Shown: positions 20,271-49,070 of the stretch, piece after piece
How positions within the stretch are numbered: the first letter of the stretch is position 1
Layout of the letters: each line of letters begins with the position of its first letter
Assembly: GCA_030062745.1 (NCBI GenBank)
Contig: CP099839.1
Span: forward strand, 42,519,891 to 42,583,890
From: Capitulum mitella
Lineage: Eukaryota > Arthropoda > Thecostraca > Pollicipedomorpha > Pollicipedidae
DNA: 64,000 bases
Direction: 5' to 3'
Translations under genes and position numbers: made by a program
Notes under the pieces: model-generated
What the model was told of the DNA's origin: nothing
The model's input: only the letters and a program-made list of their open reading frames with translations
The model's database searches: none

Positions 20271-23200
20271 GTAAATTTTTTCAGTCTTGTACAACATGCA
20301 GACCTAATGCAATGGGGAATATGTGAATTGGTTTCTTGTATTGGTTGCAAGGTGGTGTTGTTTTTCATCTGGCTGATAATGCAGTTTTCGCCATCTGTGC
20401 GGCAGCCGGTTCTGTGTTTTTGAGCTGCGGCATCGTACGTGTTGTTTAAGTGTGACAAGATCTAGTGTTAAGAGCATGGCCATATCACGGTTCCAGTTTG
20501 CTTGTGGTCCTGGGGGCCACTCCTGCTCGTGACTGAAGATCTCTCCAAGTCTTTCCAGTCATCGTCCTAATCTCATGCCGTGGAGGATACGTCGGTGCAG
20601 AACGGACCAGCTGTGTCACCGTCACAGCCGACGTTGATTTTCCGTCGCGGCACCGACCTGTCGACCAGGTGGCCACATGGCGTCGTTTGCGGGCACACAG
20701 CGGTCGCACGTTCGGTCGGTTTTCAGATTGCTGACCCGTATCGGTGGATGGAAGATGCGGACGCGACCGAAACCAAGGCATTCGTGGAAGCTCAGAATCG
20801 CCTGACCATGCCTTACATTCAGTCTTGCCCGCATCGGGAAAGACTGAGGGACACTCTCAAGACAATGATGGACTTTCCCAAGATCGGATGTCCCTTTAAA
20901 CGCGGCGAACGCTACTTCTACTACTACAATACCGGTCTGCAAAATCAGAGGTACATTAGAGGTTTTATCGGCACATTGAACACCTTGAAACGCGTTTCTA
21001 GGTGCATGTGGCATGACATCGCAGGCATGTGCTGGGATCCCGATGGAATGTAGGCTGTCCTTATTATGCTTCGAATACCACGCTGGCCAGGGTAAAGTGT
21101 TGTGTCACATGGCCTCCACCGTGCCCTGGCGGGATATGACCTTTCCGAGATGAAGCAGTGACCCGCCCAGGTCAACAAGGGGCTGCATGCAACACTGAGA
21201 CAAACTGCTTCCCATCGGCTTCGGGGCACATGTCTGCATAATGACCATCCATTTTGCTCGCTGATGTCCCGTTGACCAGTGTGTTACATATAGTATGAGT
21301 GTTGCTGTTGTTTTTGTCGGCCGTTGTACCCATGGTACTGACCAGCATCCTGTGTGCGGCAGTGTTCTGCACTGTCTGTCGTCCCAGGTGGGGCAGTACT
21401 CTGTACTGTTTGTTGTCCCATGCAGGCCAGTGTTATGCACTGGTTGTTCTTTCATATAGGCTAGTGTCCCATGCTGTTTGTGGGGCCTTGTGAGGCAGTG
21501 TTCTGTACTGATTGTCGTCCGGTGTTGGCCATTGTTTTTTGCTGATTGTCTGATTGTCCCTTGTGGGCCGGCGCGCGATAGTGTCTGGTACCTATATCGT
21601 CCAGTGTGCTGCACTGACTGGCGTCTGTTTCGGCCATTGTGTTCTACTGACTGGCGCCCTGTCTCGGCCACTGTGCGGTATTGACTGGAACCTTCTCTTT
21701 CGGTCAGTGTGCTGTACGTGCAGGACTCGCTGGAGGCCGAACCGCGAGTGTTCGTCGATCCGAACCTGTTCTCTGAGGACGGCACGGTGGCACTCTCCAA
21801 TAGCGCCTTCAGCGAGGACGGCGCCACGCTGGCCTACGGCCTCAGCACCAGCGGCTCCGACTGGAACAAGATCCACTTCCGGTAGGCGGCCGGCCCGTGC
21901 CGCAGGGGGCGGGCTCAGTGTGTCGCGGTGGTCTTTCTCGGGCGACAAGCCGGGCTCGGAGAGCTGGCGGCTGCCTGCCGGGTGGGTTCAACGTGAGAAT
22001 CCGGGTCTCCTTGGGTGGTGGATCCACCGCGATTCAGCGTGAATCATCTCACATGACGCGGAACGGCTTCTGACTGATGTTGTTCGGCCCCGTACGGACG
22101 GCCCATGGCGTCCGGTTTTGTGGAATTTTGTCTTGCTTACGACATACCAGTGCTATATAACTTGTGGCGTCTTTGCCGTTCATTTCCACTTTTAATTTTT
22201 CTGTTGCTCATTGGCGTTTCGTCTTTTTAGTTCCTACTTTCGAGTTTGCTGGCTTCCAGAACTTTTTCTCATCTGACGTGGGAGAGTGTGAGAAACGTCC
22301 AGATGAGCTCAGCTGTGGTATGTTTTTGTAGTACCGTGATGTCCCTGTTCGTTTATGAGCATTGGAATATTTGTGAACTGGGTGGGTAATAGTCACATTC
22401 CATAGTCTGAAAACAGTCCGTCGACATCGTCGGGCATGGGAGGAGCGTTGCAAAGCTGAAGACTTTTGTGCGCTCGTGTTCATACGTTTCTTGTAATATG
22501 TCGTCATTGGTGAAAAATGAGGCTGACACTCAGGTTCTTGAAATATGTGCTACTTCATTCTGTTGAACCTCATCACAGTAGCTATTACGTCTGGTGCGTT
22601 TACGGAATTTACTCAGCCAGCGTTCTTGATGCTTTTGTAAACCTCTCTATTCTTGGTCACGCGTTGACCTTGGTTTCAGCTGCGTGGAGACGGGAAAGGA
22701 CTATCCCGAGGTCTTGGAGAAAGTGAAGTTTTCTTCGATCGCCTGGACACACGATAACAAAGGAATTTTCTATGGTGTAAGCAAATGACGTTTTGCAGGA
22801 AGTGCGGCTGTGTAAATTATGCGATTGACGTGCCATGGTGGCATAATCTGTGTTCTTATAGCAACGCTGTTTTTTGTTTTTTTTTTGCTTTTCCTTTATT
22901 AGCAGAGATTAAGAATTGCTGACGTCATTCGTACAGGCAACGGTGAGAAAGGTTCGGCTGTGATTTCATCCTGGTGTGTCTATGCATCTGTTTTCTGTTT
23001 TGTTGCTAGTAGCTCATCGCACACTATTTTTTTCATTTCCAAAAATGTCATTTGCCATAGCTGCATGTGTAGTAGAAAACAGATCAGTTAGCTCAAACCA
23101 GGCGCTAATGGATGTTTGCTGATTTAAGATAGTGCACGAGTGTGCGCTGGTTTTGAAACAAACGTTTTGTATGTGTTTTATTGCCGTGGTAAATCGTGCT

Positions 23201-29200: not shown

Positions 29201-30647
29201 CTTCTTTGGGCGGCCGCGCCCGCAGTACCTTTGACGTGTGAGAGGATGTGTGCTATATCGGTACCGTCCGCCAACTGACATCACCGGACAACCCTGGAAG
29301 TTTTTTTGTGTTAAGCGTTGTAAAGTATGATCATCCAGGGATGTTTTGTACTCAAAACGTTTGCTCCAGTACTTGAATCAGAAAGTGCGTTATAGGCATT
29401 CTGACTCGTGTCCGACCAAATGAATGTTTTCATCCAGCAGGAAGCAGTTGTAATGTCTTCACCAGATTGGACCAGGAATGGTGATTTGGATATGTATTTT
29501 TAATGTGTGATTAACAGAATGTCGTGCTCCGAAAAAAAGTCTACTTCGACATCAAGAACAAAAACCTAGTCTCCAACCCTGCCTCCAGAGGGTATGTCCC
29601 AGGGGCACCTCTGACGTCTGGGAGGGTATATGTTGCCTCGGCACTCGACACGTGACAACTGCGGGACCATGTCCTGGGCACCTCTGATGTTCCAGACGAC
29701 GTTTGCTCCCTGTTGACCGTCTGACACGTCTGACACACCGTCTGACTCGCGGGGTCCTTGTCCTCGTTAACTCTGACGTTTTGTGAGGCCACGCGTTTGC
29801 CGGCGCCGTCTGACATCTGTGCCCCGTGTAAGGATCATGCTCCCGGTGCGCGGGGGACGGTACGTCGCCGCACTGCTGTGTGACCGTCCCGGGCCGTGCG
29901 CTCCCCAGTACCCGGCCACGCTGCTGCTGACGGCCGACCACGACGACCGCGTGGTGCCGCTCCACTCGCTCAAGTACATCGCCGAGCTGCAGTACACCGT
30001 GGGCTCGGACAGCAGCCAGACCAATCCGCTTCTGATTCGGGTCGACACCAAGGCTGGCCACGGCGCCGGCAAACCCACCGCCAAACAGGTGAGAGCGCCG
30101 CGGCCGCCGCGCCGGCGGACTGCGGTGGGACGCCAGGGGACCGCGGCGAGGGGCCGGGGACCGCGACGGACCACGGCGGACCACGGCGGGCGACCTGGAA
30201 ACTTGGGTGGGGCGTTGGAGGGACCGGGGATGGTAGATGTGCTGGCGGTGAGGATGGATCGCAGAGCGGATGGTGGAGGGGGATGGATAGCTGGCGGGCA
30301 GGTGAGAGTCATCTGCCAGCTAGGACAGACCAACGTGGTGCCAGGCCGGGCACAAGCAGCTGTCGGAAGTAGAGCCAAAGCGTTGAGCGAAGGAGATTGT
30401 TCATAAGTTTCTGCGAACTTTTGGCGTCAGGTCTACGGCGTTGTTGGAAACAGAGCTTCAGAATTTGTCCCTTTTGACAGCGTTTTTAAATCATTACGCG
30501 TCTTATGGTGGCTGCTGGTCCACGAACTCCAGACTACCCCGTCGTGTCCGTTTTCGGGGTTTACGACTGCCTTCTCCCGGGCAGATCGACGAATCCACCG
30601 ACATCTACTGCTTCATCATACAGGCGCTCGGCCTCCAGATCCAGTGA
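20202..30647 (+). CDS. PREP: Prolyl oligopeptidase (prolyl endopeptidase), 14 coding exons
   Basis: A cytosolic S9-family serine peptidase that cuts short peptides after proline. The exons are 20202-20270, 20727-20950, 21708-21881, 22680-22776, 23413-23552, 24259-24421, 25001-25198, 25647-25832, 26885-26998, 27284-27432, 28055-28267, 28651-28801, 29909-30088 and 30585-30647. Joined, they read 2121 nt, or 706 residues (human PREP has 710), with no internal stop. The seven-bladed propeller occupies roughly residues 70-425, flanked by the alpha/beta-hydrolase domain. The catalytic Ser551 lies in GGSNGG, Asp638 in ADHDDR and His677 in KAGHGAGK. I chose the ATG because MPLPEYP aligns with the human N-terminus MLSLQYP. 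No signal peptide is seen. Intron 7 uses a GC donor; all the others are GT-AG. No clear poly(A) signal was found after the stop. Confidence 0.96.
20727..20950 (+). CDS. PREP: PREP coding exon 2 (residues 24-98)
   Basis: Acceptor gttttcag. Encodes [19 protein letters not shown] through the diagnostic [11 protein letters not shown]. Ends two bases into a Ser codon before gtacat. Confidence 0.95.
21340..21707. repeat. Degenerate tandem repeat in PREP intron 2
   Basis: Imperfect units around ggccagtgttctgcactg and ttgtccc run up to the acceptor of exon 3. The 240-residue minus-strand open frame over this region ([19 protein letters not shown]) is a product of the repeat, not a gene. Confidence 0.6.
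21708..21881 (+). CDS. PREP: PREP coding exon 3 (residues 98-156)
   Basis: Acceptor ttcggtcag. Encodes [19 protein letters not shown] and ends [10 protein letters not shown] plus two bases of Arg before gtaggc. Matches the first blades of the beta-propeller. Confidence 0.95.
22680..22776 (+). CDS. PREP: PREP coding exon 4 (residues 156-188)
   Basis: Acceptor ggtttcag. Encodes [19 protein letters not shown] and [11 protein letters not shown], with donor gtaagc and end phase 0. Lower GC than the neighbouring exons. Confidence 0.93.
23213..23385. repeat. 29-bp GC-rich minisatellite in PREP intron 4
   Basis: Five to six copies of a unit containing gggctgcggacggtgcgcgg, followed by tgtccga, end less than 40 bp before the exon 5 acceptor. 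Because 29 is not a multiple of three, all frames are used in turn. The long open frames here ([16 protein letters not shown]) are repeat artefacts. Confidence 0.9.
23413..23552 (+). CDS. PREP: PREP coding exon 5 (residues 189-235)
   Basis: Acceptor tttcgccag. Encodes [20 protein letters not shown] and [12 protein letters not shown], with donor gtgagt in phase 2. Matches human DGTETSTNLHQKLYYH. Confidence 0.95.
24259..24421 (+). CDS. PREP: PREP coding exon 6 (residues 235-289)
   Basis: Acceptor ggctccgcag. Encodes [19 protein letters not shown] through VDKFEADYE, with donor gtgacg in phase 0. Propeller segment. Confidence 0.95.
25001..25198 (+). CDS. PREP: PREP coding exon 7 (residues 290-355), followed by a GC donor
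   Basis: Acceptor ctgccggcag. Encodes [20 protein letters not shown] through VVCYMHDVK. The exon ends AAG and the intron begins GCAAGC. No GT donor nearby keeps the frame into NILQLHSL of exon 8, so this is a non-canonical GC-AG intron. Confidence 0.94.
25647..25832 (+). CDS. PREP: PREP coding exon 8 (residues 356-417)
   Basis: Acceptor tctccgcag. Encodes [26 protein letters not shown] and [15 protein letters not shown], ending KPE before gtgagt, phase 0. Last propeller blade. Confidence 0.96.
26405..26462. repeat. (TA)n/(CATA)n microsatellite
   Basis: A TA run followed by five or so tetranucleotide CATA units in PREP intron 8. Confidence 0.9.
26489..26577. repeat. Intron repeat flanking PREP exon 9, left copy
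   Basis: The block with cctcaatcattgtc, ccagtgaaacagtgtttacc and gtatcgcatgca is repeated with few changes at about 27112-27205, on the other side of exon 9. Confidence 0.85.
26885..26998 (+). CDS. PREP: PREP coding exon 9 (residues 418-455)
   Basis: Acceptor tctgttcgcag. Encodes [19 protein letters not shown] and the strongly conserved [12 protein letters not shown], ending HKK before gtattt, phase 0. Start of the main hydrolase domain. Confidence 0.96.
27112..27205. repeat. Intron repeat flanking PREP exon 9, right copy
   Basis: Direct-repeat partner of 26489-26577, in the same orientation. Ends close to 80 bp before the exon 10 acceptor. Confidence 0.85.
27284..27432 (+). CDS. PREP: PREP coding exon 10 (residues 456-505)
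   Basis: Acceptor tgcgcggcag. Encodes [20 protein letters not shown] through ALPNIRGGG, with donor gtgagt in phase 2. YGGFNIS and NIRGGGEYG are family hallmarks. Confidence 0.96.
28055..28267 (+). CDS. PREP: PREP coding exon 11 with catalytic Ser551 (residues 505-576)
   Basis: Acceptor cccgccgccag. Encodes [27 protein letters not shown] and [13 protein letters not shown]. The nucleophile is the Ser of GGSNGG. Donor gtgcgt, phase 2. Very GC-rich. Confidence 0.97.
28651..28801 (+). CDS. PREP: PREP coding exon 12 (residues 576-626)
   Basis: Acceptor ctgcttttag. Encodes [19 protein letters not shown] through [11 protein letters not shown], with donor gtaatt in phase 0. Human has VMDMLKFHKYTIGHAW. 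Confidence 0.96.
28860..28982. repeat. Small imperfect palindrome (MITE-like) in PREP intron 12
   Basis: The left arm has tctccccactccagctttgaag. The right arm, reverse-complemented, has tctctccgcactccagctgt, and the outer words also pair loosely. About 120 bp overall. No target duplication was fixed. Confidence 0.55.
29909..30088 (+). CDS. PREP: PREP coding exon 13 with catalytic Asp638 and His677 (residues 627-686)
   Basis: Acceptor gctccccag. Encodes [20 protein letters not shown] and [16 protein letters not shown]. Contains two residues of the triad. Donor gtgaga, phase 0. Confidence 0.97.
30585..30647 (+). CDS. PREP: PREP coding exon 14 and stop (residues 687-706)
   Basis: Acceptor tctcccgggcag. 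Encodes [20 protein letters not shown], then TGA. It aligns with the human end IEEVSDMFAFIARCLN-type helix. Confidence 0.93.
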   Translation: MDESTDIYCFIIQALGLQIQ

Positions 30648-32268: not shown

Positions 32269-32400
32269 CTAGCTGGCCACCAGCAGCGCAGTGCGGGCCA
32301 GGTCCGTCTTCGGCGTGTTCTCAAAGAGCATGGCGCGATTCTGGCCCTCAGCCTTCTTCACCCAGTGGCCGTACACGCGGAACGCGCAGGCGTCGATCAC
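32269..32400 (-). CDS. PHKG: PHKG last coding exon (residues 364-406)
   Basis: Acceptor gccgcag on the minus strand. Encodes [20 protein letters not shown] and [10 protein letters not shown], then TAG. Matches the human C-terminal motif AFRIYGHWVKKGQQQNRA. Confidence 0.96.
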   Translation of the reverse strand: MIDACAFRVYGHWVKKAEGQNRAMLFENTPKTDLARTALLVAS

Positions 32401-35400
32401 CTGCGGCAAGGCAGCGGACACCCGCGGTCAGTCGGCCACCCACGGCCAGCCGGCCACCCACGGCCAGCCGGTCACCCACGGCCAGCCGGTCACCCACGGC
32501 CAGTCGGCCACCCACGGCCAGCCGGTCACCCACGGCCAGCCGGTCACCCACGGCCAGTCGGCCACCCACGGCCAGCCGGTCACCCACGGCAAGCCGGCCA
32601 CCCACGGCCAGTCGGCCACCCACGGCCAGCCGGTCACCCACGGCCAGCCGGCCACCCACGGCCAGTCGGCCACCCACGGCCAGCCGGTCACCCACGGCCA
32701 GTCGGCCACCCACGGCCAGCCGGTCACCCACGGCCAGTCGGCCACCCACGGCCAGCCGGTCAGCCGCGGTCAGCCGGTCACTCACGGCCAGCCGGTCAGC
32801 CGCCGTCAGCCGGTCATTCACGGCCAGTCGATCAGCCGCGGTTAGTCGGTCACCCACGGGCAGTCGGTCACCCACGGGCAGTCGGTCACCCACGGTTGGT
32901 TGGTTATTGGGGCTTAGGGGCGCACCGACTGCAGGGTCATTCGGCGCCCATCGATCACCCACGGTCAGCCGGTCAAACGCGGTCAGTTGGCCACGGCGGC
33001 GCCCACTGGACTGGCGCAGCGCCATCAAACGGGCACTCAGGTAACTGGTAACGAGTCTACTTTACCAACTCCACAATTTACGCGCATCTTGCCCTCCGAA
33101 GGCCATCATCGAATGGCACGTCGGCCTCGGACTAGACGCCAGGGTCGTGGCGCGTTATAACGATATTCGGTATTGTTGGCACATTATATGGGCCACAGAA
33201 ACTGCCGTGTCCCGTTCCCGTCCATCTCAAACTTCCCACTGTCTCACCGCTCTTGTCGTCATCTTGAACCATTACACGGTCTTTCATTCACCTCGGACGG
33301 AATCATCACACCCAAAACACGTCTGCCGGCGTCCGTGCCGGCGGTCCGGACCGGCCGCGGCCGCGATGCCCACCTTTCTCAGCGCCTTGAGCCGGTACGG
33401 GTCGAGCACGGCCACCGAGACGGAGAGCGCCTCGGGCGTGTACTTGAGCCGCTGGATGCGCACGGCGGCGCGCACGCAGTTGATGCCCAGCTTGAACATG
33501 CGCCGGCCGGAGAAGGGCCGCTCGCCCGCCTGTGGAGGGGCCGGCCCAGTCAGCGACGGGCGGACGCAGCGGCGGCCGGCCGGCCGGCGCCGGACCGACG
33601 GCTGCCGAGACCGCGCCGGCCCCGCGCGGAAACGGGGTCCAGCAAGCGAGACGACACAGACACTGGGACAAAACCTGGTGGAGTTTAACCCAGCTGCCGG
33701 CATCTCCCACTTCCCGCAAAAGCATGCCGCTGTGTTTTCCGGAACACATGAACACAATGGCCGCCCACGGTCTCGTTTTTCGCAAATAACAGTAATTACT
33801 TTCGTACTCTCAAGTAGGGATGCACCGGATATCCGGTCCGGCCGGATATCCGACCGGATACTAGAGATTATCCGGTATCCGGTATCCGGCCGGATATTTT
33901 TGTGATCCGGCCGGATACTGCCGGATTTAACCTCTCGGTGTACAATCAAGACGTTCCTCTAATGTCTGCGCCCAAAACCGTTTCAGGGGAAACGTGGCTT
34001 GTTGTGTTAGATTGTCGATGTAACTGGCAGTTCCAAGTCGATCTGGAGACCTAGGAACCAATTATTTTCTGTATTGGTCCGGGAGGGTTCGGACATATCT
34101 TGCAAGAATGGGACTCAAGTTCAACACTGTGAAACAATAGCCAGCATGCGGTCAGCAGCCCATCTTATGATTTCCTTTTTTCCAAATATTTCTTATCTTT
34201 CTCAAATTCTGACACAAACGCACTAAGGAAAAATATAAATTGTAGGCACTGGAAAATGAGACAGTATTTAAAGTCATACCGTAAGCACATTTATTATTAT
34301 TATATAGCACATTTATTACTGTATGAACATTAAACTTTGCAGAAATGTAGTCATAACCGTTGCGGTCAGTTGTTGCTTAATGGATCATCTCCATCGCCTC
34401 TCATCTGTCGGCAAAACGCACGCGCCTGGGTACGCGCACCAGCATTTTACGCGGTATCTCTAGTTCCAGAGCAGCGATCACCTGGCTCATCCAGCGCTTT
34501 AGAGCGACTTTGGACGTTACGTACCAGTCTCCCTGATACATCCTCTGCTTAATGATGCCCCAGATGTCCTCAGTAGGACACACCTGGTGCACACAGGGGG
34601 ACTGCTGTCACGCACTACATACGGCACTCTGGCCTCTTCCAGCAACTTGAGCGTTTTCTTCGCATAATGAGCGCTGGCCAAGTCTGGCCGGATCAACATG
34701 TCCCTCTCGAAACAGTACTCATCCAAATATGGGATGAGCACATCTCCTACGCACTTCTCACGGTACATGTTACCATCAACATTACCCATACCCGGGATGG
34801 GTAATGTTAATATAATATATATATAAATATATATATCTAATATATTTATATATATCATATATATATATATATTTATATTATATATATTATAATATAATAT
34901 ATAATATTATACATTATATATTATATTAATATATAATATATATTATTTATTTATTTTATTAATTTTTATTAATTATTTTATTAATTAATTAAATTAATAA
35001 TTTAATTAATATATATATATATATATATAATATATTATATATATTAATATAATATATAAATAAATACCCGGCATGATAGCCGGCTTTGTCACACCCCTGA
35101 GAGAGATGGCGGGCCACACGAAAAGATTACGGGAAACTTGCTCTCTGGCCTCAGTGGTACTTTTGCTGGACTTCTGCTGGACGTGCTCCAACAGAGTACC
35201 CAAGGTTTCCTAACATATACCTCTCGTGGTAGATGAAGTAGCTTTCGTCGTCCATGGCAATGCCCCGTTCTTTCCGATTTCATGTGATCCGCGGGACAGT
35301 TTCCGGATGCAGGTCTTTTGGGCGACCTCTTGTTTTTGGGTGACCTGGGGTGACCTCTTGCTCTTTCGTACCGAACCTTGTTTGCCACCAATATTTTTTT

Positions 35401-36167: not shown

Positions 36168-39100
36168 AGAAGCATTTCAGGTCAAGGTCATCAAAGGTCA
36201 AGGGCAGGTTTTTGCGACCTGGTCCAGATTTGTTTTGCAATACATCGATTTGTGTGAAATACGCATTCAAAGACCCTTCTAAAACACGTTTGGCATATTG
36301 ATACTGGCATTTATATACATACATAGCAGAGGAATATAAACGCTGGAAATGACCAGATGTACCGATGTTGGCTACCTTCACTGAAAATACGCCAAAAGAT
36401 ACATGTCGCGCCCTCATTTACTCTCAAACTGTCCCGTGTTGTTCGAAATCTGATCTGTGAAAGATGAAAAAATGACGTCACAGGTCACTGACCTAACACG
36501 ACCTCGACCCAAAATCCCCAGTCAAGACGCCAAATGAATGGAAGTTATCGTATTCCACGTTTTAACGGCCCAACAAACACCCCGTTTCGTTCGAAAAGTT
36601 GTACGGAATGGCATGTACAGGCCGATAAAGTGTCCAAAGTTGACCTTTTCCACCCTATTTGGCCTTGAAGATATCGACTCACAAGCTGTGGGCATTTTTT
36701 ACTAATTTTTTTCAGTTTCCCATATTTTTCTTTTCCATTCAGTCTTTTCGGTTTCATTATTTCAATAGAAATAGTAAATAAAAACATGTAAACATAATAT
36801 CCGGTATCCGGCCGGATATCCGGCACCCCGATCCGGCATATCCGGTATCAGCGGCCGGATCACAAAAATCCCGATCCGGTGCATCCCTACTCTCAAGACC
36901 TCGAGTGAAGAACTGCAGCGAAGGGACAGCGCTTTCTCCAGCGCGACGGGACATGGACGGCAAACGCATTGTCACATAGCGCGATTAGCTCGACAGCATG
37001 GAGGCGGAGCTTCCAGAAGCGAAGCAGTGCGTGGCGAGGCACACCGACAAGCCGGCTCATCACCAAACGTCAGTTCGCGGAGAGCTGAGCCGTGGCGCAC
37101 GTTACCGACTGCCGCTGCAGTCACGACAAGGCTAGACACTGAATCTGCGACAGAAGGACGCTGTCACGGTCCCTGCCGAATCCAAGCAGGCCGCAGCGTG
37201 TTCCGGGCCGAAACCACCCCGGCAGACACCGCACAGCGCAGCGTTCGTGAAGTGCTAGCTGCCGACGCCCGGCGCCTGGGCCGGCCCCACGGCTCGCGCG
37301 GTTCCGGCGCCGGAGAGAGGAGCCACCTTCCGCCGGCTCTCACCTGGGGCGCCAGCGGCTCCTTTATCGACTCCGGCACGGTGATGTGGAACGACGGGAA
37401 GTCCTGTCATGCACAAGACAGACGCCGGCCGGTCAACAGGGGGCGGCGCTGCGTGTTCGTTGAGTGGCAGGAGGCCGCCAGGCGTGCGGCAAGCAGGGCC
37501 AGACACAGGCCGGCGTGCTGACCGTCCCGGCACCGGGAGACCAGACAGACCGGACAGCACGGGGGGTAGCCTGCGTTTCGGTTCAGTCAACTCCACGGCA
37601 GACATGCGACTGTGAGCACCTCACAGCAACCGGTCCCGTCGTAGTGACGTGGAATGCGCGAGCTGGAGCTGAACCCGAACCCGAGTGACGAGCGAAACGA
37701 ATGCCATTAGGCCAGGAGTCGCGTGTCCACAAAACTATGTTCTTCTTTCGTAGTTTTAATTCCCCTTAAAAGAAGCGTTAACATCAAGGATGGGCTTTGC
37801 CATTTAGGGTGGGTTTTGCCAAAGCGTTGACAAGACACCCCAGAGGTTGGTCTTTTCAATCCGTTTTGTGGGATCGACCGAAGAAGGTCCTGCAGCGAAG
37901 GAGCTTGGACACTGCAGAAATTAATCGTCCATCCCGACACAATAGTGGCAAAGCAGATTTAAGGACAAGACAGACAGACGTGGTTTGAGTGAGCAAACCA
38001 CTCTTTCACCTTCTCCCCCCCCCCCGTTTCGTCGGACTTTGAACTGCGTGACTGGTCTCCCCAACAACGCCACGCTACGGCCCACAGGCTAGCTAGACAC
38101 ACTGGGAGGAGTCAGCTACGATCAAGCAAAGCCCAGCTACGCAAACCCTCAGCACACAGCAGCTACACAAAACGTACTGAAATCATGACGTTCCGTGACG
38201 GTTATACACTAGCTACGACGCCACGTTCACTAGCAAGGCACTGTTCGAAGAGAACATCAAGTAAAACGAATTCGGTGTGTAAGGATACACGCCTCATGAG
38301 ATATCACGGTTGATGAAGTTCACCCCAGTCATGACGTCAGTAAGGTCAAAACTTACATTAACAAAATTCACGAGCGTGGTAGTCAGAAACCGCTTTAAGA
38401 TTCACTTTCCATGGCTACCACATAATTTGACAGAACAGTTACTACATCAATGTATACCGGCGATATAGGTTATCAGAGTATGGATGACTTCAGACATTTT
38501 GTCCACATGTATGGCTATGGTTCTGAGCAGGACGCATTTTACGAAGACGCTGGCATCCTACAAAGCGTATGCTGCACATTTTCAGCAACAGGCGGGGCTT
38601 TACGTTTGCCTTTGTCTTTACATCTGCACTGCATTTGCCCTGCTTTTGGGGCGTTGTATGCCTCTCACACCAACGTTCCCCTTCACCTGCGCCAGAGGCA
38701 ACCTGCCACCCAGCCCACCACCGCCCGGCCTCCCGAGCCACACACCAGTCGGCTGCACTAAGGCCGCCACACCACTCCCGCCACCAAGCGTCAGCAGTCT
38801 GTGCAGGACGGCGGGCCATGCGGCGGCCCGGCGCCGACCACCCACCGTCACGCGGTGGAAGAAGGGATGGCTGAGCGCCTCCCGGACAGTGATGCGCCGC
38901 GCCGGGTCCACGGTCAGCAGGCGGCTGATCAGGTCCTTGGGCGCGTCTGGCGGCGCACAGGGGGGCCGTCAGGCAGCGATGCGGCACGGTCGGACGGCGC
39001 TGCGGCACTGTCAGACGGAACTGCGGACCGTCCCGTGGGGCTCCGGCACTGTCGGACGGAGCTCTGATACCGACAGACGGAGCTGTGATACTGACAGACG

Positions 39101-42100
39101 GGCTCAGGACTGTCAGACAGAGCTGTGATAATGACAGGACGGAGCCGCGACAGTCAGATGGAGCTGTGATACTGGCAGACGGCGCTGTGGCACTCACAGA
39201 TGGAGCTGCACGCAGTCATCGGCTAAACTGCGCACAGACGACGTCCACAACACAGCACCGCCTGCAACTTCCAGTGGAGAGCACGCATGACCTTCAAAGG
39301 AACGCGTTTTTCTTCACTGGAGGGATCTATCGAAAGCAAAAGCAATGGCATAGCGTCCAACACAAATGGGGGAATTCCTGCTCTTAAATCACCTGTAACG
39401 TCATCCCACTCGGGCGAGCCGAACGTGAACTTGCCCTCCATGATGTTACGCAGCATCACCATCTGCTTCCTGTGCCAGAACGGCGGGCAGCCGACCAGCC
39501 TGCGGAGGGGCGGAGCGGCGCTGACTGACTGGCGTCGTCCGCGGCAGAACTGACCGCCAGACCGGCGCCCAGTCCCGACCGACTGAGGCCTCCGCTGAGG
39601 AGCCTCCCCGGACGCCCGGCACACGCTCCCCACTTACGCCCGACGTGGCATCACCACACCCATACTTCAAGGCATAACGTCAACAAAGCGGATCTAGCTA
39701 CCGTTACAGTTCACATTCAAAACACTGGGTGCTCCTCATTTTCGCAACAACATCGACTGATCGAAGATAATCACAACGGCGTACAAGACAAATGGCGTTA
39801 CAGTGAACTATGTTTTCAGAAACGCAAGTACATGAACAGAGCAGACTGGAATAAGTGAAAGGAAATGAGGAATGCCGGGCAGACAGAGGATACGAGGAGA
39901 AGAGACAGGAAGCCGAGACAAAAGGAGTGGGACGGGCAAAATAAAGGGAGAGTGACAATGGACGTGAGCACTATCGAGAATATACTTACAATGTGTACAT
40001 TACAACTCCGCACGCCCACCTGCAAAACAGACATCATGTCATTCAACATTTCAAAAAACAAACGCATAACGCAACCAGTGACGAGTCCGGTGACACCGAC
40101 CAAACCGCAAGTTATGTACATTCCATCGGCAATCCAAATATACATATATACACGAGTAGGTAAGCATTCCGTCCAGGACACAATGCCGCCCTGAGCTCAT
40201 CCCTTAGTGCAGCACTGTCACCGTCATCATTACGAGCATGCGCCACTACAGACCAGTCAGCCCGTGTGCAGGGTGGCGCTGGAGCGGGGCCGCGCGGCCG
40301 GCCTCGGCAGCACTCACAGGTCGACGGGCTGGCCGTAGCCGGGGACGTCCTCGTACAGTCCGGCTCGGATTAGCTCCGGCGCCATGTAGCCCGGCGTGCC
40401 CAGGATATCTGAGCAGAGCACAGCGAGCTCTACCGCAGCGGCCGCCACACGCCGCCGCGCCCATGCAGACTAGGCGCCGCCGTCGCCGATCCGCGCCCCG
40501 GACGGGCTCACCCGGCCGGGAGCAGTGACGCCCTGAGGTCGGGGACTGTTCCCGGACCGCGAAACCAACGGGGATGGCGAAACCCACGGAGATCCTCCCC
40601 CCACCTCTTCCCAAGTCTTCCGCCACGGCAGCCACGGGCAGGTGGATGGATTCTGATGCGCTCCGGCTTCAGATTGTCGCCAGGGGCTCATGAAGTCCGC
40701 AACTGGTCATGGACATCGAGAGAAGTCCTATTTAAATTATTTGACAGGGTGAGCCCACAGTCTCGAGAATACCTCCTCCCGTTATATCCTCGCTCAGACG
40801 CTAGCTCCAGTGAGAACCCAGCAAGTATGATCCATGATTATCCCCAGTAAAGTCCAGATTTCATTACTTAATATTCGTCAAAACATGGACATTAAAAACA
40901 GATACGACTGAGTAAAACCCCGTCCGCAACAAGTGACTCCTCTTCTTACCCAAAGATCCGGAGGTGTGGGAGCCCGTGTCCCATCGATCCCGGCTGAATT
41001 TCAGCTCCGGCGTGCGGGTCAGGGACACGGACCAGCGACAGTCAACCAAACTAATGCCAACAACAGACACCACTGGAGCGCCAGAAGTGCACAGACTTGC
41101 AAAAACGACTAGCAGGCACTGGCGCCAATCGGCGGCCGGCGCCGCAAGCCAGGCAGCAGCCGTTACGCAAACGGAACGCCGTCGACACGAGCAGTCTGGT
41201 CGCCTACGTCTCCGACTGTGCACAGCGCCGGCCGCCAGCCTGCGGGCCAAAATGTGGTGGCGACACCGCGTCACACAGGCAGCAGCCGACGGCCGGGCCG
41301 GGCCGGCGCGGCGGCCGACCACTCACGTGTCCACCTCGAACCGGTACCCGGGCGCCGTCTCGACCATGTTGGCCTTCAGCAGCTCCGGAGCCAGGTAGCC
41401 GGGCGTGCCGACCAGATCTGCGCCAGACGCCGCCGCCGCGCCGCTCAGTGCACCGGCGCCGGCCGCCAGTCGAGCTCAACGCACCTCCCCGCGGCCCCTC
41501 CCGACCGGTCCGCGGCAGTCTACGGCCCCTGGTCTGCGCCGGGGTGCCACGGGAACCGCCACCCCCACGCCGGGACACGTGTTCACCGCCCGTCAAGAAG
41601 GACGTCGGTTCACCACGTTTGGCCAAAACGCAACGTTGGCGTACCCGCCGCCCAGACCCGCACTGTAAATTAGGGTCCTGTCCCCAGTCCAAAGGGCGGG
41701 CGCCAGCGGTTCGCCCAGGTCCTCACCGAGACATCGGCACAGACATTAGTCGTCAGCCGGCCAGCGCACAGCGTGAACGTCCCACACACAATGGCTCCAT
41801 CCGTTCCGTTGTTCCAACGGCCGGCACGCGGCACCAAGTGAAGCCGTTAGACACGCTCAGCGCCAGGGTTGATCCCTCTATCCGCCGCCAGGATGGGCCC
41901 CACACCAATGAGGACATTACACTGCTTCGGGATTGCCCGGGCATTCACAGCAGCTGTCGCACTATCATCGACCGTTCGTTCACAGCTTAAAACGCACAAT
42001 TACGGGGAAATCCTACATGACTGTCACCACCAAGGCGTGGTAGTTTGCCAGACAGCGCCTTTCCCTCTCCAATAAACGTGGTCTCAACACTCAAATATCA

Positions 42101-45100
42101 GTCGAACCGCTCCTGTTCCAACCAAACCACGCGGCAGCTATTAAACTGTGCACTGCCGTAGCGAAGCGGAATTCCACGGACGCTAATACGTGCCCTGGTC
42201 GGAATGGGCGTCAACCTCGACGAACCCCACAGTCCCAGGGGACCAGCGAATACCTCGGGGCGCAGACGACGGTGCGGACCGCAGAAGGTAACGGCAGAAT
42301 GGAGCACAGCGGGCCGGGGAACACGCGCAGTCCCGCACGTCTCACCGTAGAGCTCCTCGCCCGGTCGCAGAATGCGGGCAAAGCCAAAGTCGGTCAGCTT
42401 GATGTCCAAGTTGTCGTCCAAGAGAATGTTTTCCGGCTTGACGTCCCGGTGGACTACAGACTTCTCGTGAACAAACAGCAGGGCCTCCAGCAGCTGCTTC
42501 ATGATATGTCTGGGAATCGACCCAACAGCATCGTCACCGATTGCTGCGGCAGCTGCATCATCTTCCCACGACAAACATCGTCAGTTCCATTTTAAATATC
42601 GGCTGGCAGCAGTTTTAAGCGAAGACATGCCATGAGCATCGTGTTTAAACAAGCAACAATCTGTACAATAGACCAAGACAAGCATGGATGTCAGATATGC
42701 CACAACGATGATTTACACGAACGAAAATGTTAAGCAGCAGAATTCGTAAAAACGATTTCAACTCTTTCCTTCTTGTACCACCAAGTAAATGTTAACATGG
42801 ACTGAAAAATGAACAATATATTATGCATCTTCTTTCACACTCACTTGGTTTTTTTCTCGGACAACGTCACCACAGTCGTGAGGTAGTCGAATAACTCCCC
42901 TTGTCGCAGAAGCTCAAACACTAGGAAAATGTGCGTCTCGGACTCAAATACATCGTGCAGCTCAACTGAAAAAGAGCAAACCCAATAAATGGGGTGGGCT
43001 GCTTCTGCTGAGCAGAAAAACGCCCTGTCGCTTCAATGAGCACAGCTTCTCGACTTACCACATGCACTGCAGGGAACGGCAGAAATCTGTTCACCCTCTT
43101 ACGTTTTCACAGACCCCTTTCGCGGTAACAGCATAAGACAGCCGAAGTTCCGTCTCTTTCTTCAGATCTATTGACCCGATTTAAGCCAAACTTTGAGGTT
43201 CGTCTACAGAGTTGATGTATTCACTCCCAAGCACAAGTGACCTACGTCAGATGAATCGAGGTCAAGAGAGAGAGCAGGGAGGAGGTACTGGAAATGCAGC
43301 ACTTTGCAAATGGGGCGAATGGAAATTTGACAGGGCATCTGAATGTATAAGTGCAGATGGCCTCAAGCACAGGCAAGCTAGGTCTGGTCAAATGATGTCA
43401 TACAAAACCAACCAGTGAATAAACAGCACTCTGTCTTGTTCACCAGATCCACCCAAATGTCCTCAATGAGATTTTGTGCAGATACATTTTGTTGACCTCG
43501 GGCCACCTAGATAACCTTCGTACGTCGCCTGACTCATTACGATGCTGGTTTATGCCGGCTCGTAGCAACCCAAGAGTTTGCGTTGCGCTCCACTTTGATA
43601 AAACGCGGCATATCCAGGTACTGGCCAAGGGTGACCTCGATCGACCAGACCGGAGCCAGTTTGTCTTGTGTAGGTGCATCACACGGACTGCACTGGCATC
43701 AAACTCAGTTCCAATGGGTTTCGCAGACTTGGAGAAAGAAAAGGCTGCTGCGAATTCCACGTACAACATGAACTAACTTGACCTGAGCCATTTAGCATCT
43801 GAAGGTTATAAGATATCACGCATGACATCACCCCACAAAACTGCGCTGCAGCTGGTTGAGTACATCGAGACATCGAAGAGGGAGAGAAAAATATTTCCGT
43901 ACCAATCTGCTCAGAACGCCGCCAAAGCGTGTTGGGCTTCCCTCATTCGAGGGGGTCTCGAGACTCTCCTCAGGTTTACCAGGCGCAGCGCAAAAACAAA
44001 GAGAGCTAGAAACATGAAATTTCCAACAGCTGTTGGTACATCAGTTAAACATCATGTGACAAAATTTGAAAAGCAGGTCGCGTCAGGTCAATGGACTATT
44101 TGACCTCTAGGGAATGCATGTCAAATGAACTCAGTCATATCAGTGATTGTCAGAAAGAGACAATGACAAATGGAAAACGCTACTAGAATCCCAACTAATT
44201 CTCTACAAAATGCACATTCTCGATTTTTGTTGGAACATGTCCCACTTGGCCTGCAGTCAACCGCACTGAGATGCTGTTTTTGTTTTTGTTTTTTTTGTTG
44301 CCAGAAACTACCCTGCACAAAGGACTTCTTTGGGTAAGAAAAGGGGTACAGATCGTCTGATACGTCTTTTGAAAGACGCAACATACCGTTTGTGAGGTGC
44401 CAGTGATCTGAGGTCTGGTCAGCTGGTTGCAAAATCGAATATAAAACACACTGAGTATAAGACGCATTTGTCATTCACTTCTGGTGAGGCACGATAGCTA
44501 TACATTTCAGTTTCCCCTGAAGAAGTTTTGAAATGCCATGACATAATGTGACCTGACATGACATGTGACCTGATATTTCAAGTCACATGTCACTTGGGAT
44601 GTCATAAAATTGCAGGGAATGTTTTAAAATAACATCTACAGGTGGTTCCATACGTTCATGTTTAGTCCTTTCTGAGAGACAAATGATTGTCCATCCGGCC
44701 CAGGATGACCCCAAATGACTTCTGACCGTGACAGCGCTTGTCTTAGTCACGTCAGCAGTGTGGCTAAATTCAGTCAGTTAGGTTTCAAGGATGTATACTG
44801 AAATTCATGCTGTCAGACTTGTTCCTGCCATGGCTCTGAATCGCTGCCGCTGGTTATTGGCCGCCTCTCCACTGACCTTTGCACCCTTCGCGCATCCAGA
44901 CCTGCACGTCCGACTTGTATTGCCTGTGGCAGTTAGACACAGCCTGGCAATGACCTCTGTTCAGTGCTCATTGGTTGATCTCAGATAAGGGGAGGAGCAA
45001 TACAGCTGCCAGGAAGCCTAACAGCAGAGCGATCCAGTAGCATGAATCAATATCTACATCCTTGACACCCAACTGGCTGAATTAGGCCACCCTGCACGTC

Positions 45101-47189
45101 AGGCTGTTTCATGATCTCAGGCATGTCTCAATACTTCGTTTGGTACGGTGGCAGTCAATTTCCAAACAAAGCAGACACATTTTCCCTGATATCATCATTG
45201 ACCTGACCTGTCCTTGACTTCCATGTTAATCCAAAACACATAAACATAATAATAACGATCAAACAGTACTTGTCTGGCATTCATATCTTTACCCAATCAC
45301 AAGATATTGTAAGATGTGACTTCAGTTGACCTGACATGACCTAATCTGACCTTTATTAATCTTTTTTTTCTGATAACAGTTGCCATATCTGACCAAATAT
45401 TCACAATGGTGACTTCAAAACATGTGCCAAGAGCAACTCCACATGAGTGCCAGTTTTGACATAAATCAGTGTTGTATTCCAATTAGTGCTGGCATGACCT
45501 AACATGAACCGATGAGTAAATTACTTTTTGACAAAGAAAAAAGCGTTGGTGGCCCTTCCTGAACAGTACAGTAATCAAGATTGGTTTATACGGCCGTCTT
45601 ATTTGCTTTTATTACCCAAAGGATTTTGGGCCAAGGTTGGAAAAGATGATTTTTTGTGTTGAAGGATATAAGAAAACATCAGCTCAAAAAACATTTTATA
45701 CTCCACAAGTCCAATCTTGTGCCTACATCACAGCATTATAACCTATCCATATATAAGTATACATGGATACGGATGTATATATGTAAATATTAAAGGCAAT
45801 ATCATAATCGATTATGATGACAAATTCAAGCCCAACAAGCAAATGTCTGTCTCCATTCAGTAGAAGCAGGTATGGTGTGATAACTGACCTAAACCAAGAA
45901 TGCCAACATGAACCAGTATTGATGTTGGCAAAATTTTGCACTCCCAAAAACTGCCCTGACACCAGGAACAAAAAAACAAAGTTCCAACCCTGTTTTGCAC
46001 GTCATGACATGATCCTGTTTGACCTCTTGACCCAAAAAGACTGTCTCAGAGTCAATAAACATGATTTCATTCTTGGTACAATTTGGCGAGCTTATGATTG
46101 GCGTCACTCTCATCTCCGTAGGTCTCTTAAGTCTCGAAATCACGGAGGGTTCTCGAGACCCCCCCCCCCCTCCCGGATAAGTGAAGATTCGGATACCCGG
46201 GAATGCGCGGGTTAAGCTAACAAAAAGCAACAACCGGAGTTTGAAAGGACAACAGAAAATGGTGCCTCTGCAGCAGACAAACAAGCCAAACAGATCACTT
46301 CCAACGGGATTATCAGAGCAATCATTTTCTCCACACGTCATGTTCGGGTACGCCGACACCTTGGCTGTTCATGGCACCAGCGCGCAGCACAATGAGTACC
46401 ATTTTGCGCAGTGGATTTACTCACTAACATACGGATGGCCCTGGACCATGCGCAGAATTTCTATCTCTCGATGCGTCGACTCCTTGATGTCGGAGCCGTG
46501 TTCGGCCTCGCTGATGTCTATGATCTTGACGGCATATTCCACGCCGGTTTCCTTGTCCACACATCTCCGCACTGTTGAGCTCACGCCCCTGGCGGATGAG
46601 AAGTCACGGGAATGGTTAGGCAACGACGGATGGTCCCCCGTGCCTGGCCGACGGGACATGAATGAAACTGCAAATAACACACTACTGGACCCATGCCTCT
46701 CTCTTCTAACATCACTGCAAAAAAAAGAATAAGGTTAGCAACTGGCTGGCTGGCATTTACATATTTGTCCCTGCAGACCTAATTTCATGCTTCCACAACT
46801 GTTGCTGAGTACAGGATTGATTGTGCTGTATCGTTTGTAAGCCATAGCAGACACCAAAGACAACCAGGACCATCATGAATCTGCGAAGCAATTGCAAAGC
46901 CTATTTACAAATGACCTATGACATACTGTCTGTAACACATGCACATACATTCACAACATACGTTCAGCTGATGCTACAAGGCAATTACAAGATCAACTTT
47001 CTGCTTCACAGCATGTCAAGTACAAATCCTGTCCCAGTAACTGACACAATGATCATGGTTTAATAATCGCACTGATAGTACAGCAAATGCTCACCTGCCC
47101 AGCACCTCTTTTGGCTCATACTTCCCATAAAACACTTTTGCAGATTGAGCATCAGGCAAGGCATCCTCACCATCATCCATGACAGTCAT
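32269..47189 (-). CDS. PHKG: Phosphorylase b kinase gamma (catalytic) subunit, 11 coding exons per transcript plus an alternative exon
   Basis: The Ser/Thr kinase that activates glycogen phosphorylase within the (alpha-beta-gamma-delta)4 holoenzyme in the cytosol. Exons in transcription order: 47095-47189, 46425-46588, 42845-42965, 42346-42509, 41327-41417 or 40318-40408, 39990-40019, 39393-39499, 38846-38946, 37344-37403, 33374-33529 and 32269-32400. With one copy of the alternative exon the reading frame is 1221 nt, or 406 residues, as in vertebrate family members. Kinase landmarks are GRGVSS (glycine loop), Lys53 in YAVK, Glu73, HRD (Asp149), DFG (Asp167), APE and VDxWACG. The C-terminal regulatory domain ends in [11 protein letters not shown] and LFENTPK, which binds calmodulin and the other subunits in known PHKG proteins. 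All introns are GT-AG. Convergent with PREP and divergent from TIMM22. Confidence 0.96.
32415..32890. repeat. 18-bp minisatellite in the last PHKG intron, about 26 copies
   Basis: Units of the form cacccacggccagccggt alternate gtc/gcc and cagtcgg/cagccgg. The last copies are more diverged (cagccgcggtcagccggt). The period is a multiple of three, so frames stay open on both strands. It begins about 10 bp from the acceptor of the last exon. Confidence 0.95.
32893..32955. repeat. 60-bp module shared with 52.87 kb
   Basis: The block from ggttggttggttattggggc to cattcggcgcccat recurs with few changes at 52865-52925 in TIMM22 intron 1, where a weak minisatellite-like stretch also precedes it. Confidence 0.85.
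33374..33529 (-). CDS. PHKG: PHKG coding exon 10 (residues 312-363), regulatory domain
   Basis: Acceptor cctccacag. Encodes [34 protein letters not shown] and [11 protein letters not shown], with donor gtgggc in phase 0. Corresponds to the human FKVIALTVLASVRI and RDPYALRPLRRLID region. Confidence 0.94.
33807..33814. repeat. 8-bp target-site duplication, left copy
   Basis: CTCTCAAG directly precedes the element start TAGGGATGCACCGG. The identical octamer follows the right end at 36890-36897. Confidence 0.9.
34370..35450 (-). pseudogene. Broken Tc1/mariner-type DDE transposase nested in the hAT-like element
   Basis: Read on the minus strand, all three catalytic blocks can be seen, but in different frames. 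The first acidic block is [12 protein letters not shown] near 35256, followed by [19 protein letters not shown] near 35090. The second is [20 protein letters not shown] near 34680. The third is [11 protein letters not shown] near 34570. Frameshifts separate them, and about 260 bp of AT-rich repeat interrupts the gene after AIMPG. The order and spacing fit the IS630-Tc1-mariner superfamily. It is plainly inactive. Confidence 0.85.
34806..35065. repeat. AT-rich expansion splitting the transposase
   Basis: Almost pure A and T, with TATA, ATTA and TTAATTAA words. It begins and ends next to a short duplication (ataccc..ggatgggtaatg and aatacccggcatg), consistent with expansion inside the coding region. 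Confidence 0.85.
35487..36660 (+). mobile_element. Repeat A, copy 1 (homologous to 54622-55998)
   Basis: Begins ttttaacacgcgcactggaa and follows the 54.6-kb copy through gacaaatgggaactttg, the repeated words aaggtcatcaaaggtcaagg and gaaatatgcattcaaagacc, a (TA)n run, and attccacgttttaacg. Similarity fades after about 36620 and the right terminal repeat is not found, so this copy is truncated or diverged. It carries several TCAAGGTCA-type motifs. Confidence 0.8.
36105..36164. repeat. (TA)n microsatellite
   Basis: About 30 alternating TA units within repeat A. The IYIYIY open frames on both strands come from it. Confidence 0.95.
36890..36897. repeat. 8-bp target-site duplication, right copy
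   Basis: CTCTCAAG immediately after CCGGTGCATCCCTA; identical to 33807-33814. Confidence 0.9.
37344..37403 (-). CDS. PHKG: PHKG coding exon 9, 60 nt (residues 292-311)
   Basis: Acceptor catgacag and donor gtgaga bound a 60-nt, phase 0-0 exon encoding [20 protein letters not shown]. It joins the end of the kinase domain (HPFFHRVT) to the regulatory domain. It has no close counterpart in the vertebrate sequences I recall. Being frame-neutral, it could be constitutive or skipped. Less certain than the other exons. Confidence 0.7.
38846..38946 (-). CDS. PHKG: PHKG coding exon 8 (residues 258-291), end of kinase domain
   Basis: Acceptor gcgccgccag. Encodes [20 protein letters not shown] and [13 protein letters not shown], with donor gtgggt in phase 0. 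Human has [18 protein letters not shown] and HPFF. Confidence 0.96.
38960..39215. repeat. Degenerate minisatellite in a PHKG intron
   Basis: Imperfect units of about 20-24 bp around gacagacggagctgtgatact and gcggcactgtcagacgga, between coding exons 7 and 8. Confidence 0.75.
39393..39499 (-). CDS. PHKG: PHKG coding exon 7 (residues 222-258)
   Basis: Acceptor cccctccgcag. Encodes [20 protein letters not shown] and [14 protein letters not shown], with donor gtgatt in phase 1. SPPFWHR and SPEWDD are PHKG hallmarks. Confidence 0.97.
39990..40019 (-). CDS. PHKG: PHKG 30-nt microexon (residues 212-222)
   Basis: Acceptor ctgttttgcag and donor gtaagt enclose 30 nt, which complete the VDx codon and encode WACGVVMYT plus two bases of Leu. 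Without it the kinase lacks the WACGVILFT segment of the alpha-F helix. Both phases (2 in, 2 out) fit the neighbours exactly. Confidence 0.93.
40318..40408 (-). CDS. PHKG: PHKG alternative exon 5B (residues 182-212), activation segment end
   Basis: Acceptor gctctgctcag, donor gtgagt, 91 nt, same phases as exon 5A. Encodes [16 protein letters not shown] and ends PGYGQPVDL. It matches 17 of 31 residues of 5A. Including both would put two GTPGY..APE blocks in one kinase, so the two are presumably mutually exclusive. With 5B the protein reads VDLWACG, the usual form. Confidence 0.92.
41327..41417 (-). CDS. PHKG: PHKG alternative exon 5A (residues 182-212), activation segment end
   Basis: Acceptor ggcgtctggcgcag, donor gtgagt, 91 nt. 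Encodes [16 protein letters not shown] and ends PGYRFEVDT, giving VDTWACG after splicing to the microexon. It is the upstream member of the pair. Confidence 0.92.
42346..42509 (-). CDS. PHKG: PHKG coding exon 4, catalytic loop and DFG (residues 127-182)
   Basis: Acceptor gtcgattcccag. Encodes [32 protein letters not shown] and [11 protein letters not shown], ending GEELY plus the first base of Asp182. Donor gtgaga, phase 1. Human has [16 protein letters not shown]. Confidence 0.97.
42845..42965 (-). CDS. PHKG: PHKG coding exon 3 (residues 87-127)
   Basis: Acceptor gctctttttcag. Encodes [20 protein letters not shown] and [18 protein letters not shown], with donor gtgagt in phase 2. Human has [20 protein letters not shown]. 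Confidence 0.96.
43440..46380. other. PHKG intron 2 body, no gene recognised
   Basis: The long intron between 42966 and 46424. It holds many tgacctgacatgacct-type words (44530-44600, 45310-45350), a C homopolymer near 46160 and open frames of up to about 180 residues without a known domain. Confidence 0.5.
46425..46588 (-). CDS. PHKG: PHKG coding exon 2, N-lobe (residues 32-87)
   Basis: Acceptor ctcatccgccag. Encodes [20 protein letters not shown], then [11 protein letters not shown] and [18 protein letters not shown]. Contains the ATP-binding Lys53 and the alpha-C Glu73. Donor gtgagt, phase 1. Confidence 0.96.
47095..47189 (-). CDS. PHKG: PHKG first coding exon (residues 1-32)
   Basis: Encodes [20 protein letters not shown] and [12 protein letters not shown], with donor gtgagc in phase 2. 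Human PHKG1 has ALPDSHSAQDFYENYEPKEI. The ATG lies one base after an acceptor (ccattttcag), so an upstream 5' untranslated exon is expected. Met4 is an alternative start. Confidence 0.93.
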
Positions 47190-47389
47190 TCTGAAAATGG
47201 AAAGCCTTGGTAGCTGACAAAAACAGGTTTTTGTAATAGGTAACAAGTAGGCAACAAATTGGTGGTAATACCTCACAAGCATAATGGACCAGCCATCTGG
47301 CACAAGAGAGGTACCAGAATAATGGACAGGCCCAGAGACATGAGGCAAAAAGTATGTTTCCCCACATCTTCTCCAAAAACCTCATGCAA

Positions 47390-48239: not shown

Positions 48240-49070
48240 GTTCGTGCCCTCACTTTTTGGCCACAGCTGCTCTTGAAGCACCTGCAGATAGCTCTCACTG
48301 GTAACAGACTTATTTGGGCTAACCAGATTGTCCATTATGCCATCCACAATGTCAGCCCTCCATGGAACTTTCTTAACACCTTGGATTCAGCACTCCACTT
48401 CAGTGCCAGAGTTTTGTGCTGCCCAATATCTTCTTGGGATTTGTATCCCAGAATATGGGGGATACGGAATCCATAATCCTGAATTCTGTTTCTTTGGGCC
48501 TTGTATTAAGCAGAACCACTTCTCATCAGTCCAAATCACAGCCTCCTCAAATCCCTCAGGCTGTTCAAGGAACCAGCAGGAGAAGCCAAACCTCTCAACC
48601 ATGTGCCTGGCAGTCAGGGCACAACAGTGTGCCACAGCATGACAGGGACACTACTCAAATGTTCTGTGAAACACTTGCCATGCAGTGGCAAGAGGTGTTA
48701 AGTGATTTTGCTACTGCTGCCAGTGAGATGTGCTCCAAGATCTTCAAACGGGGCTCAACAAACCCATGCATGTGCGCAGCCAGCTGATCAGTGAGCAGAG
48801 GCCACTTACTGCTCTTCACCTGAGGTCATGTTTCATCTTCCATCACCATGTAACTGGTAGCTGCTTAAAGGCCCACCACCTTGGTAAATCTTTCAGTGAT
48901 AGCTGACATTCCAAGATCATCCTTTTCTCCTGCTTGGTCAAATGAAATGAATTTCTATATGTTACCCCACAGGGAGGATACCTAGACAATCTGGATGATA
49001 TGAGAGCTGACCAGTTTGGATGATGACTTTTTTGCCTAAAAATGAAACTGTTCTTCTTTTCCAATACATG
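48240..49070 (-). pseudogene. Tc1/mariner-type transposase relic
   Basis: On the minus strand 48387-48635 reads GFSCWFLEQPEGFEEAVIWT then DEKWFCLIQGPKKQN, the first catalytic Asp block of Tc1/mariner-like elements. After an in-frame stop, the sequence continues IVDGIMDNL and SVTSESYLQVLQEQLWP, typical of the next part. The rest upstream is decayed. A different lineage from the copy at 34.4-35.4 kb, judging by the motif sequences. Confidence 0.7.

Follow-up and report, generated by a model that had tools for sequence, protein, structure and literature searches.

The minus strand of the window, by which we mean the whole 64,000-nucleotide stretch of Capitulum mitella DNA that was analyzed, carries a gene for phosphorylase kinase gamma (PHKG), the catalytic subunit of the enzyme that turns on glycogen breakdown. 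Its coding exons, including two alternative exons termed A and B, are collected in Table 1. When joined, they yield a model of 386 residues with zero internal stops, regardless of whether exon A or exon B is used, and all introns of this model are bounded by GT at the 5' end and AG at the 3' end. Because an acceptor-like sequence (...ttttcag) precedes coding exon 1, there is probably an untranslated exon farther upstream. The C-terminal region encoded by exons 9 and 10 may correspond to the vertebrate PHKG regulatory domain with its pseudosubstrate loop. We also noted that skipping of the microexon, which we take to lie at the start of helix F, keeps the reading frame but would cost the kinase ten residues.

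Table 1. Coding exons of the PHKG gene, in order of transcription; positions are those of the window.
Feature	Positions	Strand	Remarks
Coding exon 1	47095..47190	-	ATG at 47189; from sequence and gene model
Exon 2	46425..46588	-	N-lobe (GVSSTVRRC...AVKIID); gene model
Exon 3	42845..42965	-	Gene model
Exon 4	42346..42509	-	HRD and DFG motifs; last base G is first base of a split Asp codon
Alternative exon A	41327..41417	-	End of activation segment, P+1 loop, APE, start of helix F; sequence and gene model
Alternative exon B	40318..40408	-	Same 31 residues as exon A; sequence and gene model
Microexon	39990..40019	-	30 nt; WACGVVMYT and part of next Leu codon; common to A and B forms
Exon 7	39393..39499	-	107 nt; gene model
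Exon 8	38846..38946	-	End of kinase domain (HPFFHR); donor predicted at 38845 from frame and consensus
Exon 9	33374..33529	-	First part of C-terminal region; splice sites predicted from consensus and frame
Exon 10	32269..32400	-	Pseudosubstrate-like region and stop codon; gene model

The first-pass annotation had assigned this gene to PHKG, and comparison with solved structures bears this out by placing PHKG1 and PHKG2 far ahead of CaMKII. The B form (291 residues) finds PHKG1 at E 5.6e-116 and PHKG2 at E 6.1e-115 in the PDB, and the next family, CaMKII, follows at 3e-68. With the A form, compared over 93 residues, PHKG2 is found at 3.3e-37 and PHKG1 at 1.1e-32, and the next family at 3.4e-21. 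The Pfam Pkinase model scores 258.9 bits when exon A is used and 261.2 bits when exon B is used, whereas two lesser Pfam kinase models place B slightly below A (107.8 versus 108.9 bits and 24.4 versus 29.7 bits).

Exons A and B had been described as two exons of 91 nucleotides with the same phases and good splice sites that provide two alternatives for one stretch of 31 residues. Each part of this description was reproduced. Both segments are bounded by AG and GT (acceptors ...GGCGCAG and ...TGCTCAG for A and B, respectively, and the donor GTGAGT in both), and both have open frames. The flanking sites are also as claimed, with the upstream donor at 42346 and the next acceptor leading to base 40019. 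The two exons are separated by an intron of 918 nucleotides and are identical at 55 of 91 nucleotides (36 differ). When translated with the shared upstream G and the downstream G, they agree at 17 of 31 residues and differ at the other 14.

Such a resemblance stands far above what the window offers by chance. Among all segments in the window consisting of AG, 91 nucleotides, and GT that are open in this phase, 77 are on the minus strand (A and B included) and 71 on the plus strand. After A itself, the top match to A is B with its 17 identities, followed at best by 6 identities on the minus strand and 8 on the plus strand. Likewise, a tblastn search of the window with A as the query recovers B at E 7.5e-10, and the next match is at E 0.05. 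Judged by their sequences, A and B qualify as an exon cluster, being neighboring internal exons of equal length and phase that are homologous and are flanked by valid splice sites.

The length of these exons has consequences for their use. Because 91 equals 3 x 30 + 1 and is not a multiple of three, the inclusion of both exons or of neither gives an early stop. If A and B are joined, the frame breaks and translation would end within exon 7, at its base 52, before three further coding exons. If both are skipped, a stop is reached at base 18 of the microexon. Thus, the earlier statement that one protein can hold only one of the two exons is upheld in the sense that the frame enforces it. The length of the intron separating A from B would permit its splicing, and so the sure enforcer is the frame rather than a steric block. 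The products carrying both exons or neither also end upstream of at least three exon junctions, and nonsense-mediated decay is to be expected for such transcripts. A working enzyme would contain only A or B, so the gene could make two enzyme forms.

Given these characteristics, we consider it likely that an internal exon of the PHKG gene was duplicated in tandem and that its two copies are used in a mutually exclusive manner. Both of the predicted proteins are full-length and retain the kinase motifs. The spliceosome would select between A and B according to cell type or developmental stage, and transcripts that carry both exons or neither would be lost to nonsense-mediated decay. Both catalytic subunits would then join the same holoenzyme, with the named contacts to the alpha subunit and calmodulin unchanged. 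The differences between A and B, which are located in helix EF, in the EF-F loop, and at a small number of positions next to the P+1 loop, may tune substrate binding or catalysis.

The region exchanged by this choice can be placed on known structures. By alignment of the B form, the swapped segment equals residues 182-212 of rabbit PHKG1 and residues 183-213 of the human chain. In rabbit PHKG, Glu182 replaces the phosphorylated Thr of PKA and pairs with Arg148, which permits activity without phosphorylation (PMC10978961), and PHKG, a classic kinase, is reported to require no phosphorylation of the loop for its activity (PMC10978961, PMC2639635). At this phospho-mimic position, both barnacle forms have Asp, which the B alignment puts opposite residue 182 of 1phk (E; S in 1ql6). 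The Asp codon is split, with G contributed by exon 4 and AT by either A or B. Because an acid is kept in both cases, both forms should be active by default. Furthermore, sections 9-11 of PMC10978961 name no residue in human gamma 183-213 as a contact to alpha, to calmodulin, or to the autoinhibitory domain. As the named contacts fall outside this segment, assembly should be the same for the A and B forms. The pseudosubstrate loop occupies the substrate site, and therefore a change on the neighboring P+1 side could still alter inhibition.

Within the segment, the differences are distributed unevenly. In agreement with the first-pass annotation, the Cys of the vertebrate CGTPGY motif is absent from both forms (Val in A, Leu in B), and divergence is greatest between APE and PGY, where 3 of 10 residues are identical, versus 9 of 12 before this stretch and 5 of 9 after it. 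The P+1 motif itself hardly varies (GTPGYLAPE versus GTPGYMAPE), and two more differences between A and B are located just before it. The differences are found mainly in helix EF and the EF-F loop. Because A and B have almost the same P+1 core, an altered choice of substrate is less certain than was suggested earlier, when the two kinases were said to differ exactly where substrates dock. The two forms may plausibly differ in their choice of substrate.

This near identity of the P+1 motif, along with the phospho-mimic acid present in both forms, is also what would be expected if the pair were used but the two forms were biochemically equal. The choice between exons would then serve RNA control, perhaps as tissue-specific dosage through the unproductive products that contain A and B together or that skip both, each of which carries an early stop. 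The 14 of 31 residues that differ speak against equality, but this is a weak point because drift alone could account for them. On balance, we regard equal forms as unlikely, though more probable than the other alternatives considered.

Several comparisons bear on whether exon B is functional. We simulated neutral decay with 100,000 copies of A, each given 36 random differences, assuming single hits and as many transitions as transversions. Such copies retain a mean identity of 11.0 of 31 residues, and at least 17 identities occur in 0.14% of them. None of the copies kept all 13 motif residues, although these residues were picked in the knowledge that A and B have them in common. When compared with the vertebrate proteins, A is identical to PHKG2 at 21 of 31 residues and to PHKG1 at 16 of 31. 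PHKG1 and PHKG2 are identical in 24 columns, of which 16 are retained in A and 14 in B, which indicates a similar degree of constraint on the two exons. Of the 16 columns that PHKG1, PHKG2, and A have in common, B matches A in 13, versus 4 of the 15 other columns (Fisher P 0.004, a value that is biased because A stands on both sides of the comparison). The ratio of substitution rates is not decisive, since NG86 gives a dN of 0.47 and a dS of 0.78 with synonymous sites near saturation, and the maximum-likelihood dS is saturated. The exon pair is real and very probably functional.

These data also bear on the notion of exon B as a relic, an ancient copy that looks intact and yet is rarely or never spliced in. 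B is a predicted exon, and it is further from PHKG2 (16 of 31 residues) than A is, though both stand at 16 of 31 with respect to PHKG1. An open frame is not by itself informative, because a neutral copy with 36 of 91 differences keeps it in 49% of cases, but only 0.07% of the simulated copies combine at least 17 identities with the absence of a stop. In addition, B has retained its acceptor, its donor, its exact length, and its phase. The pyrimidine tract at its acceptor (12 of 17 positions) is better than that of A (7 of 17), which is the poorest of the nine acceptors scored (the other eight have 10-13 of 17), and its main kinase score is not lower than that of A. For the proposed use of both exons, in turn, the poor tract of A and the slightly lower scores of B with the two lesser kinase models are points against. 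We therefore judge a relic to be improbable. A main transcript that normally contains A and B in tandem is scarcely credible, since the intron between them is spliceable and poses no steric bar but the resulting frame shift would forfeit the rest of the kinase domain.

If mutually exclusive use of A and B is accepted, a more ambitious proposal can be entertained. One PHKG gene might give rise to two catalytically distinct gamma subunits by a swap that extends from the phospho-mimic residue to the start of helix F, with both forms lacking the activation-segment Cys and with splicing doing the job that is done in vertebrates by PHKG1 and PHKG2. In this proposal, a 14-nucleotide repeat could loop out exon A and favor exon B. 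We advance this idea tentatively, as it is less likely than not to be correct. The repeat in question is the longest perfect inverted repeat in 39990-42350, and its arms (41131-41144 and 41454-41467) bracket exon A. An inverted repeat of at least 14 nucleotides occurs in 4 of 200 local shuffles, and since the bracketing repeat was chosen after looking, it should be treated only as a lead. Long-range duplex energies between the introns are within the range of shuffled sequences (4, 21, and 3 of 30 shuffles were as low or lower). As a separate observation, the region of the upstream arm (41453-41466) also pairs at 86% with 40294-40307, just after exon B.

We searched for other copies of the exon and the gene both in the window and in the genome assembly (477 Mb, 16 contigs). 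A tblastn search with A revealed no recognizable third copy of the exon in the window. When exon B plus the microexon was used to search the genome, only B and A were found at E 0.001 or better (two matches, 19 scored candidates). A genome search with the A form, in which 135 of 284 candidates were scored, listed 123 matches and revealed no second PHKG gene among them; this list included neither exon B nor the microexon, and so diverged copies could be missed. The listed matches at 69-97% identity are the gene's own exons, and none elsewhere exceeds 55%. Based on these searches, the PHKG gene is apparently single in its genome. A retrocopy with joined exons was considered and rejected, as a stretch joined through exon B had eight DNA matches, of which five are the gene's own exons and three are pieces elsewhere at 71-79%. 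A scan of viral contigs identified five loci that encode relatives at 27-34% identity, which is too distant for PHKG, and a pattern scan of genome contigs yielded no relative among 281 pattern matches.

Regarding the age of the duplication, the introns around A and those around B share only short matches, the best being 22 nucleotides at E 0.002. A recent duplication or an assembly artifact is ruled out because the flanking introns match only in these short and weak stretches. Two positions that are Cys in both PHKG1 and PHKG2 are occupied by Val and Ala in A and by Leu and Ala in B. This shared absence of Cys weakly suggests that the duplication occurred after the split from vertebrates or that gene conversion took place later.

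The mechanism class to which this pair would belong, tandem exon duplication with mutually exclusive use, is well known and ordinary, and the interesting part is the place in the protein. Alternative exons inside a kinase domain are known for JNK (exons 6a and 6b) and FYN (exons 7A and 7B). These are other kinases with exchanges at other positions, whereas the A/B swap begins at the phospho-mimic residue and takes in the P+1 loop, APE, and helix EF. Vertebrates have two genes, PHKG1 and PHKG2, whose segments are identical at 24 of 31 residues, whereas here there are two exons of one gene that agree at 17 of 31.

Mutually exclusive exon clusters as defined for WebScipio include the criterion that one exon is used per transcript (PMC3228551). 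Exons A and B share with these clusters their position as neighboring internal exons, equal length, same phases, homology, and shared flanking exons, and one-per-transcript use is predicted for them by the frame argument. According to the same paper, FlyBase transcripts of the phosphorylase kinase gamma gene of D. melanogaster carry two mutually exclusive exons, which form the only annotated internal X-chromosome cluster that was missed by the homologous-exon search (PMC3228551). Those exons belong to the same gene but have neither similar length nor similar sequence, and hence they are unlike the A/B pair. The paper also counts 17 genes with newly predicted exons, and PHKG could be among these (PMC3228551). 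A search limited to open-access literature yielded no account of PHKG having paired exons for its activation segment, and such isoforms may well be annotated in a gene database. If the swap is real, it would provide a clean natural experiment on the part played by this segment in substrate choice and turnover, because the rest of the protein is identical. It would also mean that gamma-subunit diversity can come from splicing, with no need for gene duplication.

Several other features are present in the window. Searching it with Rfam (gathering scores) and with ARAGORN gave no hits. Two minus-strand open frames (48390-48650 and 34520-34906) resemble, by eye, fragments of Tc1/mariner-type transposases; they had no Pfam match at E 0.01. 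A tandem repeat is located at 32415-32895 in the last PHKG intron, just upstream of exon 10, and is composed of about 27 copies of an 18-nucleotide unit with 87% matches. Finally, parts of a prolyl oligopeptidase gene are found on the plus strand at approximately 20.6-30.4 kb, convergent with the PHKG gene, where open frames match the Pfam models Peptidase_S9_N (20571-21050) and Peptidase_S9 (29777-30403).
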